DNA of 64,000 bases from contig NZ_CP127385.1 in assembly GCF_030378205.1 (NCBI RefSeq), positions 682,001-746,000 on the forward strand, in the 5' to 3' direction. Positions 451 to 44,700 of the stretch are shown here, piece by piece; position 1 is the first letter of the stretch; each line of letters begins with the position of its first letter. The translations under genes were made by a program, and so were the position numbers. The DNA comes from Bradyrhizobium sp. NP1 (lineage in GTDB: Bacteria; Pseudomonadota; Alphaproteobacteria; Rhizobiales; Xanthobacteraceae). Under the pieces are notes generated by a model. It did no database searches and was not told where the DNA came from. It saw only the letters and a list, made by a program, of their open reading frames with translations.

Positions 451-528
451 CGAGTGGAGCGGATTTGACGTTCGCTACCCGTTTGCCACGATTCCATCAT
501 GCGAACGTCAAATCCAAAGCTCCACTCG
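451..528 (-). repeat. bulged palindromic repeat A (left half of doublet 1)
   Basis: 78-bp imperfect inverted repeat. Outer arms CGAGTGGAGC/GCTCCACTCG and inner arms GGATTTGACGTTCGC/GCGAACGTCAAATCC pair perfectly around a 25-nt loop. The right arm carries an unpaired AAA between inner and outer stem. Its reverse complement is very similar, loop included, to the copy at 36835-36912, so it spreads as a unit and is not a chance hairpin. It forms a head-to-head doublet with the copy at 541-616. Confidence 0.85.
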
Positions 529-540
529 CATCAATATTTC

Positions 541-616
541 CTAGTGTCCCGTTGGTTCTGACATTCGTAAGAGAACTCGCTGCAACATGATACGAATGTC
601 AGAACCGGGACACTAG
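541..616 (+). repeat. bulged palindromic repeat B (right half of doublet 1)
   Basis: 76-bp inverted repeat. Outer arms CTAGTGTCCCG/CGGGACACTAG and inner arms GTTCTGACATTCGTA/TACGAATGTCAGAAC surround a 21-nt loop, with an unpaired TTG in the left arm. It lies 12 bp after repeat A in the opposite orientation and ends 12 bp before the mtnP start, just upstream of its ribosome binding site (GGAG at 620-623). A degraded copy that shares the loop is at 8318-8371. Confidence 0.85.
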
Positions 617-3487: not shown

Positions 3488-5023
3488 TCACGCCGTCCGC
3501 GAGGTCAGGCGCTGGATCTGCCGGCTGACGGCGCCGGTGATATTGGTGACGAACGCCTTGAACGCCGGGATATAGAGCAGCAGGATCAGGATGGTCACGG
3601 TGGCGAACGCGATGCTGATCGGGCGGGTGAAGAACGGCACCAGGCTGCCGTCGGAGAGCACCAGCCCGCGGCGCAGGCTCTTGTCGAGCAGCCCGCCGAG
3701 CACGAGCCCCAGCACGAACGGCGCCATCTGGTAGCCGCGCCGGCGCAGGAAGAACGCGCCGATGCCGATCGCCATCATGCAGTAGATGTCGAACAGGCGC
3801 GAGGCGCTGGCGAACGCGCCGACCGTGCAGAGCAGGAAGATGATCGGCATCAGCACGGTGCGCCTGATCTTGAGCACCAGCAGCAGGGGCCGGATCAGGA
3901 ACAGGCCGAACACCAGGATGCTGACGGTCGCAAGCGAGGTCATCGCCACCACGTCATAGATGAACTGCGGATGCTCGATCATCAGCATCGGGCCCGGCTG
4001 GATGCCGTGGATGATCATCGCAGCCATCAGCACGGCCGATGGCGCCGAGCCGGGAATGCCGAGCGCCAGCGCCGGAATGATGTGGCCGGGCACCGAGGAC
4101 ATATCGCCGGTCTCCGCCGCCATCAGCCCGTCGATCGATCCCTTGCCGAACTGATCGCGCTCCTTGCTCACGGTCTTGGCGGCGGCATAGGACATCCAGG
4201 CGCCGGCGTCCTCGCCGACGCCCGGCATCAGGCCGGTCAGCACGCCGATCACGCCCGAGCGCAGCACGGTGCGCCAGTATTGAAAAACCTCGCGGAACCG
4301 TGGCAGCACGGAATCGCGCATCTCGACCATTTTGCGCTCGACGGGATCGGCGAGCGTGGTCAGGACCTCGGCGAAGCCGAAGGCCCCGACCAGCGCCGGG
4401 ATCAGCGCGATGCCGCCGGAGAGCTGATTCCAGCCGAAGGTGAAGCGGTCGAAGGCGTAAAGCCCTTCCTGGCCGATCTGCGCCACGAACAGGCCGAGCG
4501 TGCCCATCAGCCAGCCCTTCAGGGGATCGTTGCCGACGATGCTGCCGGACATCGCGACGCCCAGCAGCGCAAGCCAGAAGAATTCGTAGGCGCCGAACGA
4601 CAGCGAAACCTCCGCAAGCAGCGGCGTGAAGGCGGCAAGGCACAAGACGCCGAACAGCGTGCCGCTGAAGGCACCCGAGGTCGCAATCCCGATGGCGCGG
4701 CCGGCCTCGCCGCGCAGCGCCAGCGCGTGACCGTCGGCGCAGGATGCGGCGTTCGCCGCGGTGCCGGGGATATTGAGCAGGATCGCGGTGCGCGAACCGC
4801 CATAGAGCGTGCCGACATAGGAGCAGATCAGGATCAGGATGGCGTCGTTCGGCGCCATCTTGATGGTCATGGTCGTGAGCAGCGCGATGCAGAGCGTCGC
4901 CGACAGTCCCGGCAGGCAGCCGACGATGATGCCGAGCAGCGCCCCGCCGAGCCCATAGGCCAGCGAATAGGGATTCAGGATGCTGAGATAGGCTTGACCG
5001 AATTCGGAAAGACCCGACAGCAT
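3488..5023 (-). CDS. tctA: tripartite tricarboxylate transporter large permease TctA
   Basis: 511-residue polytopic membrane protein, the 12-TM-class permease of a TTT secondary transporter that works with a periplasmic binding protein. The two internally repeated TctA signatures are present: GIIVGCLPGLSAT near the N-terminus, and GLMPGVGEDAGAWMSYAAAK with the following FGKG and GIPGSAPSA segments. The start at 5023 (MLSGLSEFG) is the first methionine after an upstream stretch that does not look like coding sequence. Order on the strand is tctC, tctB, tctA, isomerase, with gaps of 57, 17 and 14 bp, which indicates one operon. Confidence 0.93.
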   Translation of the reverse strand: MLSGLSEFGQAYLSILNPYSLAYGLGGALLGIIVGCLPGLSATLCIALLTTMTIKMAPNDAILILICSYVGTLYGGSRTAILLNIPGTAANAASCADGHALALRGEAGRAIGIATSGAFSGTLFGVLCLAAFTPLLAEVSLSFGAYEFFWLALLGVAMSGSIVGNDPLKGWLMGTLGLFVAQIGQEGLYAFDRFTFGWNQLSGGIALIPALVGAFGFAEVLTTLADPVERKMVEMRDSVLPRFREVFQYWRTVLRSGVIGVLTGLMPGVGEDAGAWMSYAAAKTVSKERDQFGKGSIDGLMAAETGDMSSVPGHIIPALALGIPGSAPSAVLMAAMIIHGIQPGPMLMIEHPQFIYDVVAMTSLATVSILVFGLFLIRPLLLVLKIRRTVLMPIIFLLCTVGAFASASRLFDIYCMMAIGIGAFFLRRRGYQMAPFVLGLVLGGLLDKSLRRGLVLSDGSLVPFFTRPISIAFATVTILILLLYIPAFKAFVTNITGAVSRQIQRLTSRTA

Positions 5024-6657: not shown

Positions 6658-6805
6658 GCGTTTTCCTCCATCTGGTTAGTTGATTAGCGGGGATTGTATG
6701 CGCAACAGGGGGCCCCGCGCAAATGCGGCGCGTGCATCCGCAGGCGGTGACGTATGCGTGCTACTTTTGGCTTAGCCGTAGGGGTGAAGGGCGGGCGGCG
6801 CGCAG

Positions 6806-7438
6806 CTATCGGAGCGCGAGCCCGGTCGCGGCTTCGAGCTCCGCAAGGGCCTGTGCGGCGCTCGTCACCTTGATCGTGGTCATGCCCATCTCGCGCGCGG
6901 GCTTCAAATTGACGCCGAGATCGTCGAGGTAGACGCAGGCTCCCGGATCGACCTGTAACGCATCCGTCATCATCCGGTAGATGCGCGGATCGGGCTTGCG
7001 CAACCCGATCTTGGCGGATTCGATGACGTGGTCGAACAGCGCCATCACGTCAGCGACATAGAGCGAGCGACCGCTCGTGCTGCCGATCGCATTGGCCGGC
7101 AAATTGTTGGTGATGCAGCCGGTCTTGAAGCTCGCTTTCACCCGCTTCAGCGCCTCGACCATCTCCGGCCGCAGGTCGCCCTGCAAGAGCGGCAAGACGT
7201 CCCGGCCACGCACCTCCGCGCCGAGCGCGAGCGACTCCACGGCAAACAATTTGTCGAAGGCCTCGATATCGACCTCGGCGCGCTCGAACTTCGCCCAGGC
7301 ATTTTCGAGGTGGTTGGCGGCGTTGGTGCGACGGATGATGTCGGCGGGCAGCCCGCGTTCGGCCTCGAAGCGCGCGAACGCCTCGAACGGCGAGGTCGTC
7401 AGCACGCCGCCAAAATCCCAGATCACCGCCTCGATCAT
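6806..7438 (-). CDS. HAD family hydrolase (ACAD10-like subfamily)
   Basis: 210-residue haloacid-dehalogenase-fold protein. Motif I is WDFGGVLT with nucleophile Asp8; the second Asp of the classical DxD is Gly10. Motif II is in CITNNLP, motif III Lys in IGLRKPDPRIY, and motif IV in VYLDDLGVNL. The DFGGV form is common in HAD-like proteins related to the N-terminal domain of ACAD10 and soluble epoxide hydrolase. The first methionine consistent with the fold is at 7438. It is divergent from the protease gene. The substrate is unknown. Confidence 0.82.
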   Translation of the reverse strand: MIEAVIWDFGGVLTTSPFEAFARFEAERGLPADIIRRTNAANHLENAWAKFERAEVDIEAFDKLFAVESLALGAEVRGRDVLPLLQGDLRPEMVEALKRVKASFKTGCITNNLPANAIGSTSGRSLYVADVMALFDHVIESAKIGLRKPDPRIYRMMTDALQVDPGACVYLDDLGVNLKPAREMGMTTIKVTSAAQALAELEAATGLALR

Positions 7439-11797: not shown

Positions 11798-11871
11798 CTA
11801 GTGTCCCGAATCCGATGTTCGCACGGTCTTGCGGCGGGCACTTTGCGAACTTCGGATTCGAAGGACACTAG
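11798..11871 (-). repeat. bulged palindromic repeat C (left half of doublet 2)
   Basis: 74-bp inverted repeat. Outer arms CTAGTGTCC/GGACACTAG and inner arms CGAATCCGATGTTCGCA/TGCGAACTTCGGATTCG (one mismatch) enclose a 20-nt loop, with unpaired AA in the right arm. The inner stem sequence differs from repeats A, B and D but is still self-complementary, showing compensatory change. Confidence 0.85.
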
Positions 11872-11884
11872 CAACCATATGATT

Positions 11885-11963
11885 CTAGTGTGGCTTTGGT
11901 TCAGAAGTCCGCATGAAGAATGCGTGGGCCAAAATGATGCGGACTTCTGAACCGCCACACTAG
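11885..11963 (+). repeat. bulged palindromic repeat D (right half of doublet 2)
   Basis: 79-bp inverted repeat. Outer arms CTAGTGTGGC/GCCACACTAG and inner arms GGTTCAGAAGTCCGCAT/ATGCGGACTTCTGAACC are perfectly paired, with a 22-nt loop and unpaired TTT in the left arm. It is 13 bp from repeat C. Its terminal CTAG provides the TAG stop codon (minus strand, 11960-11962) of the acyl-CoA synthetase gene. Confidence 0.88.
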
Positions 11964-20212: not shown

Positions 20213-20307
20213 CGTCATTCCGGGACGCGCGCCAGCGCGCACCCGAAATCTCGATCCCTCATCTCTAGATTCCGGGTCTGCGCCTTGCGGCGCATCCCGG
20301 AATGACG
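20213..20307. repeat. cloverleaf-shaped intergenic repeat, copy 1
   Basis: 95-bp element between two convergent genes. The outer stem CGTCATTCCGGGA/TCCCGGAATGACG (13 bp) encloses three hairpins: GCGCG/CGCGC, a long middle arm ACCCGAAATCT/AGATTCCGGGT (one mismatch), and GCGCC-TTGC-GGCGC. The copy at 30749-30830 has the same outer and middle arms, but arms 1 and 3 differ in sequence while remaining paired. A role in bidirectional termination or mRNA 3'-end protection is likely from its position. Confidence 0.85.
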
Positions 20308-23128: not shown

Positions 23129-23189
23129 GATTTCCTCCGTGATCGGCGGTCTGTCGCCGCCTGTCGCTTTGCGCAGCATGCCGAAGTCC

Positions 23190-23267
23190 CTGGTGTGGCG
23201 GATTCGACGTTCCTATCAGTGCTGCGGCGAATCCCTCATAGGAACGTCAAATCCCAAGCCACACTAG
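23190..23267 (-). repeat. bulged palindromic repeat E (single copy)
   Basis: 78 bp. Outer arms CTGGTGTGGC/GCCACACTAG and inner arms GGATTCGACGTTCCTAT/ATAGGAACGTCAAATCC pair almost perfectly, with a 21-nt loop and unpaired CAA in the right arm. It lies in the divergent gap between the acyl-CoA ligase and acyl-CoA dehydrogenase genes, so it is close to both promoters. No partner copy was found 13 bp to its right. Confidence 0.82.
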
Positions 23268-23436
23268 AGCCAGCACGAGTTTTGTGCATGTGCTAAGGTT
23301 GTCTTGCGTTGAGTGGCTGGCGGGCGGCTGGCTGGGAAAGCGTCACAGTGTATGCCCTGATTCCAGCGACTGGACGCAAGTGGGGCCTGCCGGTTCGCTT
23401 CATCCTGTGCGGCATAGCACAATGAGAGCCGAGCCC

Positions 23437-30748: not shown

Positions 30749-30830
30749 GTCATTCCGGGATGGTGCGCTAGCACCAGACCCGGAATCTCGAGATTCCGGG
30801 TTCGCCGCTGCCGCGGCCCCCCGGAATGAC
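30749..30830. repeat. cloverleaf-shaped intergenic repeat, copy 2
   Basis: 82-bp element between convergent operons. The outer stem GTCATTCCGGG/CCCGGAATGAC holds arm 1 TGGTGC-GCTA-GCACCA, a perfect middle arm ACCCGGAATCT/AGATTCCGGGT with almost no loop, and arm 3 GCCGC-TGCC-GCGGC. Compared with the copy at 20213, arms 1 and 3 have changed on both sides so that pairing is kept. It starts 6 bp after the carboxylase stop and ends 5 bp before the transporter-gene stop. Confidence 0.85.
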
Positions 30831-36745: not shown

Positions 36746-36821
36746 CCAGTGGTCCGATTCTAACATTCGCTCCTCACTTTGGGAGGCACGTTTGCGAATG
36801 TTAGAATCAAAGGACCACCGG
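36746..36821 (-). repeat. bulged palindromic repeat F1 (left half of doublet 3)
   Basis: 76 bp. Outer arms CCAGTGGTCC/GGACCACCGG and inner arms GATTCTAACATTCGC/GCGAATGTTAGAATC are perfectly paired around a 23-nt loop, with unpaired AAA in the right arm. It differs in both stems from its partner F2 but has the same architecture. It lies upstream of the binding-protein gene (36581-36914 holds no other feature beyond the promoter of that gene). Confidence 0.85.
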
Positions 36822-36834
36822 CAAATTTTCGATG

Positions 36835-36912
36835 CTGGTGGAGCTTTGGATTTGACGTTCACATAAGGGAACTGCGGCAAATGGGTTGCGAACGTCAAAT
36901 CCGCTCCACCAG
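36835..36912 (+). repeat. bulged palindromic repeat F2 (right half of doublet 3)
   Basis: 78 bp. Outer arms CTGGTGGAGC/GCTCCACCAG and inner arms GGATTTGACGTTC/GAACGTCAAATCC, with unpaired TTT in the left arm. It is close to the reverse complement of repeat A (451-528), including part of the loop. The spacer to F1 is 13 bp and AT-rich. It ends 2 bp before the stop codon of the acyl-CoA ligase gene. Confidence 0.85.
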
Positions 36913-41743: not shown

Positions 41744-44700
41744 ATCTCGGCCGCCTTTCCGTCAACCAGCCGATCCTGGCGATGGTGCTGTCCATCGTGC
41801 TTCTGATCGTGGGCGCGATCGCCTACACCACGCTGCCGGTCGCCGAATATCCGGAAGTGGTGCCGCCGACGGTGGTGGTGACCGCGCAATATCCCGGCGC
41901 CTCGGCACAGACCATCTCCGACACGGTCGCCGCCCCCATCGAGCAGCAGATCAACGGCGTCGAGGACATGCTGTACATGTACAGCCAGGCCACCTCGAAC
42001 GGCCAGCTCACCATCACGATCACCTTCAAGCTCGGCACCGATCTCGACAAGGCGCAGGTGCTGGTGCAGAACCGCGTCGCGATCGCGCAGCCGCAGCTGC
42101 CTGACGAGGTGCAGCGCAACGGCGTCGTCACGCGCAAGAACTCGCCCGACATCCTGATGGTCGTGTTCATGCTGTCGCCCGACGGCAGCCTGGACCAGCT
42201 CTATATCTCCAACTACGCGCTGCTCCAGGTCCGTGACCAGTTGCTGCGGCTCGACGGCATCGGGGACATCCAGATGTTCGGCGCGCGCGACTATTCGATG
42301 CGGGTGTGGCTCGATCCCGACAAGATCACGACGCTCGGCATGACGGCCGGCGACGTGGTGGCCGCGATCCGGGCCCAGAACCTGCAGATCACCGGCGGCC
42401 AGATCGCGAGTCCGCCGATCTCCGATCGCGCCTTCCAGCCGAACCTGACATTCACCGGGCGGCTGAAGGACATCGCCCAGTTCGAGGACATCGTGGTCAA
42501 GGCCGGCGGGGAGGGCCGCACCGTGCGACTGCGCGACGTGGCGCGGGTCGAGCTCGGCGCGCTCGACTATTCCACCAACAGCTTCATGCTGCGCAAGACC
42601 GCGGTCGCGCTGCTGGTGACCCAGCGCCCCGGCTCGAATGCGCTCGCCACCGCCAAGGGCATCTCGGACACCATGGCCAAGCTGAAGGCCAGCTTCCCGA
42701 AAGGGCTTGACTACAATATCGGCTATAATCCGACCGAGTTCATCGCCCAGTCCATCAAGGAGCTGATCAAGACCATCTACGAGGCGATGATCCTCGTCGT
42801 CATCGTGGTGCTGGTGTTCCTGCAGGGATGGCGGCCGGCGATCATCCCGATCGTCGCGATCCCGGTGTCGCTGGTCGGCACCTTCGCGGCGATGGCCGCG
42901 CTCGGCTACGCCATCAACAATCTGACGCTGTTCGGCCTCGTGCTCGCGGTCGGCATCGTGGTCGACGACGCCATCGTCGTGGTCGAGAATGTCGAACGCC
43001 ATCTCGGGCACGGCATGAGCCGGCGCGACGCCGCGCTCAAGACGATGGAGGAGGTCGGCGGCGCGCTGGTCTCGATCGCGCTGGTGTTGTGCGCGGTGTT
43101 CGTGCCGACCGCGTTCCTCGGCGGCATCTCGGGCCAGTTCTTCCAGCAATTCGCCGTCACCATTGCGGTCGCGACCGCGATCTCGTGCTTCTGCTCGCTG
43201 ACGCTGTCGCCGGCGCTGGCCTCGCAGATCCTCGTGCCGCACGAGGAGAAGCGGCCGCCTGCAGCCTGGAACGTGATCGGCCGGGCCTGGGAGGCCTTTA
43301 CCGGCGTCTTCAACCGCGGCTTCGACTGGGCATCCCATTCGTACGGCAGCATTGCGGGCTTCGTGATCCGCCACCGCGTGGTGATGCTGCTGGTCTATGT
43401 AGTGCTGATCGGCAGCGCCGGCTGGCTGCTCGCCAGCACCTCACAGGGTTATATCCCGGCGCAGGATCGCGGCTACGTGATCATCTCGGCGCAATTGCCG
43501 GGCGCGGCCTCGCTGGCGCGCACCACCGAGATCGTCCGGCGGATCGAGGGCATCGCGCTCGACACGCCCGGCGTCATCCGCGTCGCCGCCTTTGCCGGTT
43601 TTTCCGGCGCGACGCGGACGCAGGCGAGCAACGCGGCGGCGCTGTTTCCGGTGTTCGACGAGCCTGAGGTGCGCCTGAAGAAAGGTCTGACGGCCGCCGC
43701 CATCACCGCCGAGTTGCGCAAGCGGCTGTCCGCGATCCAGGGCGCCTTCATTATCGTGATCCCGCCGCCGCCGATCCCCGGCATCGGCACCGGGGGCGGC
43801 TTCACCATGCGGATCCAGGACCGGCAGGGCCGCGGGCCCGAGCTGCTGGCGGCCGCGACCGACGAGCTTGTCGCCGGGGCGCGCAAGTCGCCCGGGCTCA
43901 CCTCGGTGTTCTCGCCGTTCTCGGCCAACACGCCGCAGGTGTTCGTCGACATCGACCGCATCAAGGCGCAGAAGCTCGGCGTGCCGATCCAGAACGTCAA
44001 CGAGGCGATCGAGACCTATTTCGGCTCGACCTACGTCAACGACTTCAACCTGTTTGGCCGCACCTATCACGTCACGGCGCAGGCCGATCTGCACTTCCGG
44101 AAGGAGAGGGCCGATCTCGCGCGGCTGCGCACCCGCAATGCCAATGGCGACATGGTGATGCTCGGCAGCGTGGTGGATTTCCGCGACATCTCCGGGCCCG
44201 ATCGCGTCGCACGCTACAATCTCTATCCGGCTGCCGAACTGCAGGGCGAGACGGTGCCCGGCACCAGCTCGGCGACCGGCATCGCGATCATGAAGAAGCT
44301 CGCCGACGAGACGCTGCCGACCGGCTTCGCCTATGAATGGACCGACCTGTCCTACCAGCAGGTCACCGGCGGCAACGCCGGCCTCTACGTCTTCCCGATC
44401 TGCGTGCTGTTCGTCTACCTGGTGCTGGCCGCGCAATATGGCAGCTGGAGCCTGCCCTTTGCGGTGATCCTGATCGTGCCGATGTGTCTCTTCGCCGCGA
44501 CCATCGGGGTGCGCATCATGGGGCAGGATGTCAACATCCTCACCCAGATCGGTTTCGTGGTGCTGGTCGGGCTCGCCGCCAAGAACGCGATCCTGATCGT
44601 CGAGTTCGCCCGCGACATCGAGCTTGAGGGTAGGCCGCGGCTTGAGGCCGTGATCGAGGCCTGCCGCCTGCGGCTGCGGCCGATCCTGATGACGTCCTTT

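Follow-up and report, generated by a model that had tools for sequence, protein, structure and literature searches.

What element is formed by paired hairpins that recur at an almost constant length in a bacterial genome, and what moves it? The question is raised by three such doublets in a 64-kb stretch of Bradyrhizobium sp. NP1, the whole of which was analysed and is called the window here (positions 682001-746000 of a 7,712,921-bp single-contig genome).

The doublet and its geometry

A sequence-only reading of this DNA had placed doublets of 166, 166 and 167 bp in the window, with spacers of 12, 13 and 13 nt that all start with CA. Sequence, fold and match to a covariance model (CM) bear out the positions, the lengths and the spacers. 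The units of a pair are indeed opposed with their bulges toward the spacer: the unpaired 2-3 nt lie between stem positions 10 and 11 of the spacer-facing arm. The features are listed below with the evidence for each.

451-528, plus strand: unit A, class 2, outer stem GGAGC, bulge AAA in the right arm, left end of doublet A+B (166 bp); sequence, fold, CM match
451-476, plus strand: left outer arm of A+B, unbulged, matching an IS630-type terminal inverted repeat; arm profile
529-540, no strand: spacer of A+B, 12 nt, CATCAATATTTC, AT-rich; sequence
541-616, minus strand: unit B, class 1, outer stem GTCCC, right end of A+B; sequence, fold, CM match
591-616, minus strand: right outer arm of A+B, unbulged; arm profile
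11798-11871, plus strand: unit C, class 1, CTAGTGTCCCGAATCCGATGTTCGC, in doublet C+D (166 bp); sequence, CM match
11872-11884, no strand: spacer of C+D, 13 nt, CAACCATATGATT; sequence
11885-11963, minus strand: unit D, class 2, outer stem GTGGC; sequence, fold, CM match
23190-23267, plus strand: unit E, a single class-2 unit (GTGGC) with no partner on its spacer side, probably a remnant; fold
36746-36821, plus strand: unit F1, class 1, GGTCC, in doublet F1+F2 (167 bp); sequence, fold, CM match
36822-36834, no strand: spacer of F1+F2, 13 nt, CAAATTTTCGATG; sequence
36835-36912, minus strand: unit F2, class 2, GGAGC; sequence, fold, CM match

The six paired units and unit E (folded as 23180-23275) give folding z-scores of -4.9 to -10.3, with 200 shuffles each. 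An arm pattern taken from the window units has seven matches in the window at up to 3 mismatches, against a shuffle mean of 0.28. Doublet F1+F2 carries CCAG at both outer ends, read on the plus strand. Doublet A+B lies directly upstream of a gene start at 629; by eye the gene resembles mtnP. A+B joins a class-2 unit of the GGAGC subfamily to a class-1 unit of the GTCCC subfamily, and this mixture is a sign of recombination between subfamilies.

The canonical unit consists of CTAGTGNNNC, an inner stem of 15 nt, a loop of about 25-28 nt, the complement of the inner stem, a bulge (mostly AAA) and GNNNCACTAG. In the doublet, unit 1, with an outer stem ending in CC, is followed by the spacer and then by a reversed unit 2, with an outer stem ending in G[CT], so that both bulges face the spacer. 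The oriented 13-nt spacer has the consensus CAAATTATTGATT and an A+T content of 0.73, compared with 0.38 in the flanks. For 312 well-scoring units from this and other genomes, the bulge is 3 nt long in 248, 4 nt in 48, 2 nt in 15 and 1 nt in one. With its terminal tetranucleotides the doublet measures 161-171 bp and holds no gene, the size expected of a short (<300 bp) MITE.

Geometry was examined in 0.98 Mb of this genome, made up of the window, 93 loci around model hits or Y1 genes and 7 random stretches of 20 kb. A scanner found 213 units there. The sequence-only reading had called for a covariance model and a table of orientation and spacer length, and held that the doublet would be a chance of the window if copies elsewhere lay at random. 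When this was done in that sample, 87 of the 99 neighbouring unit pairs less than 40 nt apart proved to be facing, with a spacer of 11-15 nt (one of 11, 18 of 12, 52 of 13, 14 of 14 and two of 15 nt); orientation and spacing in the 0.98-Mb sample are thus not random. The other 12 close pairs comprise three facing at 5-6 nt, two on the same strand at 13 nt and seven that overlap by 3-4 nt, with CTAG common to both members. That the two members differ in stem sequence also stands, in a sharper form: they are two classes of one unit (CC or G[CT] at the end of the outer stem), and 82 of the 87 facing pairs combine class 1 with class 2, four have one unclassified member and one was classed 2 + 2.

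The family is large. Covariance model R1 matched 150/150 scored candidates, taken from 3087 first-look candidates in this genome, and the arm pattern with up to 2 mismatches has 324 matches genome-wide (12 for the reversed control). Family counts here and in other genomes are floors, as a part of the candidates was scored. At least 29 isolated arms occur in the sampled part of this genome; those inspected are degenerate doublets, chance matches or mini-derivatives that keep just the two outer arms. Such fused mini-derivatives are found at L053 7486-7558 and L060 4001-4072 and at 753576-753638 of genome G000. Solitary units look like remnants. Doublets also occur in tandem arrays with a period of 164-165 bp and a common CTAG, as at genome positions 6749-7082 (L018) and 43034-43529 (L019).

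Dispersal as one block and the CTAG target

The doublet is dispersed as one block and inserts at CTAG. In G010, another species of the genus, seven full copies are 98-100% identical over 165/165 nt and have unrelated flanks; the only other model match in that genome is one diverged unit at 5641691. Further copies of the G010 doublet, 92-99% identical, are present in related species. For three of the G010 copies, empty sites exist in relatives: a single CTAG when empty, CTAG at both sides when occupied, with a net gain of 161 bp. The earlier proposal of a composite unit that spreads as a whole is upheld by the near-identical copies, by these exact empty sites and by a geometry kept across species and genera.

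At site L158, 24 relatives without the element have one tetranucleotide at the junction (CTAG in 20, TTAG in 4), and the 25th, G133, is occupied, with another hairpin element nested within. At site L155, the 29 loci show CTAG adjoining the right flank in 19 (the full GCACTAG in 11) and CTAA in 7, with 3 uncallable. Of the 19 regions fetched for site L160, L263 gives a clean empty locus with a single CTAG; the left flank stops short of the junction in the remaining 18, and their right flank is preceded by TCAG (9), CTAG (6), TTAG (2) or CTAA (1). The CTAG...CTAG arrangement at the occupied L155 and L158 sites is compatible with duplication of TA within CTAG and with a 4-bp duplication alike. 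Nested and tandem copies have the tetranucleotide in common (CTCG in L080). Among 30 older doublets with a non-CTAG outer end, the outer tetranucleotides differ in 27 and are the same in 3, so the duplication is unreadable there; the difference is assumed to be drift. Beyond CTAG itself, 51 doublets show a weak target preference for a preceding G and a following C.

CTAG is a rare word in this genome. In 204 kb it was counted 62 times against 673 expected from base composition, about eleven times fewer; 7 of the sites lie in units, 18 in ORFs, 26 between them and 11 at stop codons. Doublet positions relative to genes were scored for 125 doublets of this genome and six others, with ORFs from a simple caller written for this analysis. 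An edge of the doublet falls at the stop codon of a long ORF in 45/125 (15/500 shifted controls), TAG makes up 41 of the 50 stop codons abutted (448 of 1301 ORF stops in the sampled loci of this genome), and doublets inside an ORF number 3/125 as against 387/500 shifted controls. Flanking genes are convergent in 32/95 pairs. Since CTAG is scarce and frequently overlaps TAG stops, the doublets come to lie between genes or at their ends, and insertions within genes are presumably purged. A target of four bases can in this way be nearly harmless to the host: it is rare and often coincides with a TAG stop, and that stop is restored upon insertion.

The stems are kept paired. Among 33 diverse units, 96.4% of cells are paired, with 195 two-sided changes, and covariation is 0.613, where shuffled controls give 0.200 and slid controls no more than 0.125. 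The 185 units from this genome found by a scanner that gives G.T no credit contain 4362 Watson-Crick pairs, 94 G.T, 104 A.C and 65 others. An RNA stem should favour G.U, whereas here G.T and A.C mismatches are about equal, so that pairing is maintained in the DNA and not in RNA. This may come about through the needs of mobility or through a copying process across the palindrome; once inserted, copies appear to decay neutrally.

These data bear on a reading of the doublet as a conserved element with a role in RNA or for the host (terminator, sRNA or mRNA stabiliser) that is under selection and transposon-like in looks only. The frequent position at stop codons, the convergent neighbours and the strong stems would suit such a role. 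It is nevertheless very improbable, since the near-equal G.T and A.C counts do not favour strand-specific RNA pairing, dispersed copies are 98-100% identical, the window and six loci have no Rfam match at gathering thresholds, and the sites tend to be empty in relatives. L155 and L158 are empty in most of the relatives read, and no unit stands at the site of A+B in 29/29 relatives' loci, where spacing was usable in 11, identity in the next gene reaches about 90% at best and the intergenic alignment is unclean. A secondary effect of doublets on transcription may exist.

The outer arms and the likely mover

The outer, unbulged arms led to a known kind of insertion sequence. An annotated IS630 element of 1177 bp on plasmid pCB82_1 of Bradyrhizobium sp. 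CB82 (QA640_RS46835), whose transposase has a DDE_3 domain (E=3.3e-22), ends in CTAGTGTCCTGAT and ATCAGGACACTAG. It was compared together with 16 loci picked from 55 rows listed to spread over genera, which gives 17 IS elements that sit on plasmids of other species. An inverted-repeat search gave AGTG- or CTAGT-type ends in 11/13 loci, pCB82_1 included. Scored with an unbulged-arm profile that omits CTAG, 17/17 loci have their best match at an IS end, at 12.9-25.9; the background over 126,332 window positions has a 99.99th percentile of 6.8 and a maximum of 16.1, and several of the 17 best scores fall below that maximum. The bulged-arm profile scores -9.6 or lower at 23/23 IS ends scored, i.e., the inner arms are unmatched. 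As controls, 100 kb of pCB82_1 contains two positions at 12.5 or above, one of which is the IS end, and an IS630 of another subgroup reaches 5.9 at best. One end of the IS630 on plasmid p2 of Roseomonas mucosa, CTAGTGTCCCGAATCCGAAGTTCGC, is identical to unit 1 of the G010 copies at 25/25 nt and to the outer arm of unit C at 24/25.

The second IS end is weaker, with scores of 2.2-9.1 in seven loci, and was not found by the arm profile in L390, L398 and L399. L388, L389 (B. barranii) and L397 each have a class-1-like IS end opposite a class-2-like one, the same combination as in the doublet. An IS with two such unlike ends would account for the union of both classes in doublets; in L395 both ends are class-2-like. 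IS ends fold at -6 to -16 kcal/mol, compared with -25 to -27 for two units, and are not long hairpins, so that the hairpin design does not come from the IS in the form seen. Judged by profile and identity, the outer arms of the doublet are IS630-type inverted repeats, the terminal repeats that a MITE should have.

The closest elements are IS630/Tc1-mariner insertion sequences of the DDE_3 subgroup with CTAGTGTCC-type ends, represented by QA640_RS46835 on pCB82_1, HAP41_RS47355 on pBb1S5a and WDZ11_RS22235 on R. mucosa p2. They resemble the doublet in the outer 25 nt, in CTAG at the ends and, in some, in a difference between left and right end. Unlike the doublet, they have a gene, are about 1.16-1.21 kb long and end without such bulged hairpins. 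The target is also in keeping with the family: IS630 prefers TA in CTAG according to the title of Tenzen and Ohtsubo (1991), as given in the reference list of PMC2170065, and ISY100, a member of the IS630 family, duplicates TA according to a passage of the same paper.

Very probably, then, the doublet is a non-autonomous MITE of the IS630 family (Tc1/mariner type) in which each end has become a bulged hairpin by doubling. The outer arms would be the two terminal inverted repeats, left and right, of an IS630-type insertion sequence, joined without the gene. Each outer arm would then have gained an inverted copy of itself with an insertion of 2-4 nt, the bulge, to make a hairpin of about 74-80 bp, with about 13 nt of AT-rich spacer between the two hairpins. 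Acting in trans, an IS630 transposase would cut at the unbulged outer ends and insert the doublet at CTAG, leaving CTAG on both sides (with TA or all four bases duplicated), for a net gain of 161 bp from a 165-bp copy. The bulge lies between the tip of the repeat and its inner part and should disturb recognition of the inner copies; with these disabled as ends, the hairpins would stay joined in a single 166-bp unit. We infer both the role of an IS630 transposase in moving the doublet and the disabling effect of the bulge on the inner copies, which would leave the whole doublet as the only mobile unit.

It is conceivable, if rather doubtful, that the bulged-hairpin doubling is an evolved device, in which the bulge spoils the inner copy while the paired arms, re-matched at the DNA level, keep the ends distinct and fresh. 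Re-matching could come about through, for instance, repair across the hairpin. If true, this would make the doublet a self-proofreading mini-transposon, and would explain how stems differ freely between subfamilies and yet always pair.

No IS was found among the long repeats of the sampled loci of G330, G406 and G010. An autonomous element with complete units at both ends was considered and rejected, as units 60-1800 bp apart in the loci sampled enclose no transposase. Other genes are occasionally enclosed by doublets. At 5312695/5313525 of G000 a small gene, lipoprotein-like by eye, is enclosed by two doublets, of which one is nested in an older one. At 5340051/5341911 of G330 (L321 9052-10987) a gene that by eye is carboxylesterase-like has a doublet on either side, with near-identical class-1 outer units facing each other; this locus is a possible composite unit.

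The sequence-only reading had likened the doublet to REPINs and pointed to a transposase of the TnpA-REP/RAYT or IS200/IS605 type with the same ends. A REPIN-like doublet would be two REP-type hairpins moved single-stranded by a Y1 HUH transposase of either type. As in REPINs, two inverted units move as one, the element is small with a tetranucleotide at its foot, and the genome does have two PF01797 (Y1) members (29.8 and 27.9 bits). Both Y1 genes, though, are flanked by a different repeat, of GTAGGGTGGGC type, and there are no doublet units in the 8.2-kb loci around them (L033 and L084). A Y1_Tnp match (E<=0.01) is absent from 13 of 23 family-bearing genomes, taken as those positive with model R2, or with R1 for G010 and G025; the 13 are G010, with its fresh copies, and G133, G264, G406, G357, G351, G489, G475, G389, G348, G435, G311 and G482, and the other 10 have one. 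A Y1 match is present in 5/10 genomes in which the family was not matched; the presence of the gene is thus not tied to that of the family. Orientation shows no replication bias (26:18 on the lower side of the GC-skew switch at 4 Mb and 23:15 on the upper side), and the outer arms match a DDE element. A Y1 mover is thus highly unlikely, and that part of the earlier proposal is set aside.

A stretch of about 420-540 bp, 80-87% identical, is common to L033, L074, L084, L086 and L105, two of which hold the Y1 (RAYT-like) genes of this genome. In G249 (L341 and others) there are fourteen equal-scoring copies of a Y1 transposase of 188 aa, apparently an active IS200-like element.

The TG...CA adjoining CTAG would also fit IS481. 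A MITE of another DDE family that uses CTAG, either IS481 or IS5 as tentatively given for the CTAG-inserting MITEPsy1 in the part of PMC3189936 that describes it, is still more improbable, since the arm profile is best at an IS end in all the IS630 loci compared, with one identity over 25 nt, and the ends of MITEPsy1 (GGAAGGTCTGAAAAAGCC) are unlike it.

Distribution and related repeat families

The family is present in at least 202 of 391 genomes and at least 33 of 47 genera of the same bacterial family (model R2, built from 33 diverse units, E<=1e-7, 12 candidates scored per genome). None of 24 genomes from other families of the same order was positive with model R1 at 1e-8. In 12 other genomes (G236 of the same genus, all others from different genera) 52 of 74 close pairs, overlapping loci excluded, are facing with a spacer of 11-15 nt; the remaining close pairs are mostly overlaps of 3-5 nt, as expected of nested and tandem copies. 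The exact junction pattern was found in 9 stretches of Rhodoplanes piscinae, a Pseudolabrys and other Xanthobacteraceae assemblies. By blastn the doublet has matches on plasmids of Bradyrhizobium sp. CB82 and, at 70% identity over 99% of its length, of Aminobacter sp. SR38. The family matches none of the phage records.

Several bacterial MITEs of the IS630 type, e.g., Correia/NEMIS, RUP and ERIC, are short, non-coding and intergenic, have inverted repeats and a TA target, and are presumed to be mobilised in trans. Unlike these, the doublet has each end doubled into its own bulged hairpin, and a spacer of about 13 nt. RIME1 and RIME2 of the Rhizobiaceae are also intergenic, with two large palindromes per element of 108-109 bp; the doublet, at 161-171 bp, is set apart from them by its length. 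The names RIME1 and RIME2 occur in a passage of PMC2573895.

In the sections of PMC3116915 on their structure, REPINs are doublets of inverted hairpin-forming units that move as one, with singlets that resemble remnants, and in all this they are similar to the doublets described here. The same sections tie them to RAYT Y1 transposases and derive one hairpin from two REP ends, whereas each unit of the present doublet is a long hairpin and a Y1 enzyme is unneeded. MITEPsy1 of Pseudomonas syringae, as described in part of PMC3189936, is 100 nt long, inserts at CTAG or YTAA with a 4-nt duplication, and its assignment to IS5 bears a question mark. It shares with the doublet the lack of coding capacity and the CTAG target, and differs in its length, its ends and its IS5-type assignment. 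Br-REP1 and Br-REP2 (in excerpts of PMC5082802) and the GTAG and CGTC REPs (in excerpts of PMC3733652) are palindromic, intergenic repeats of Bradyrhizobium, as the doublets are; their sequences, to the extent given there, differ from those of the doublets (CCGGAATCTCGAGATTCCGG and so on).

The sequence-only reading knew of no description of the family, and none was found in the open-licence literature searched; MITEs of IS630/Tc1-mariner elements as a kind are known. What is new to the open-licence literature searched is the design, with IS ends doubled into bulged hairpins and stem pairing kept in the DNA. A likely mover can now be named for an abundant repeat of soil- and plant-associated bacteria that would otherwise be filed under REP or REPIN.

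Other palindromic families occur beside the doublets. In the window, 30749-30830 and 20213-20307 are repeats of CCGGAATCTC type, like Br-REP1/2 of Bradyrhizobium japonicum, and represent separate families. A second two-hairpin family, about 100-110 bp long and possibly RIME-like, has the form AGCGTTTTCGAGCGAAGTGG..GAAAACGC, spacer, CTAGAGC..GCTCTAG and lies at YTAG sites. It was seen in L271 and L279 (relatives of G010) and in L081, L090 and L114 of this genome, and in two relatives it occupies the very point of the G010 doublet at site L160. A third two-hairpin element, AAGCGCGATGAGATTAGG..CGCGCTT, TAG, GAGCATGATC..GATCATGCTYTAG, is located at the inner end of a unit in L281 (G133) and in L049 at 3866-3996.
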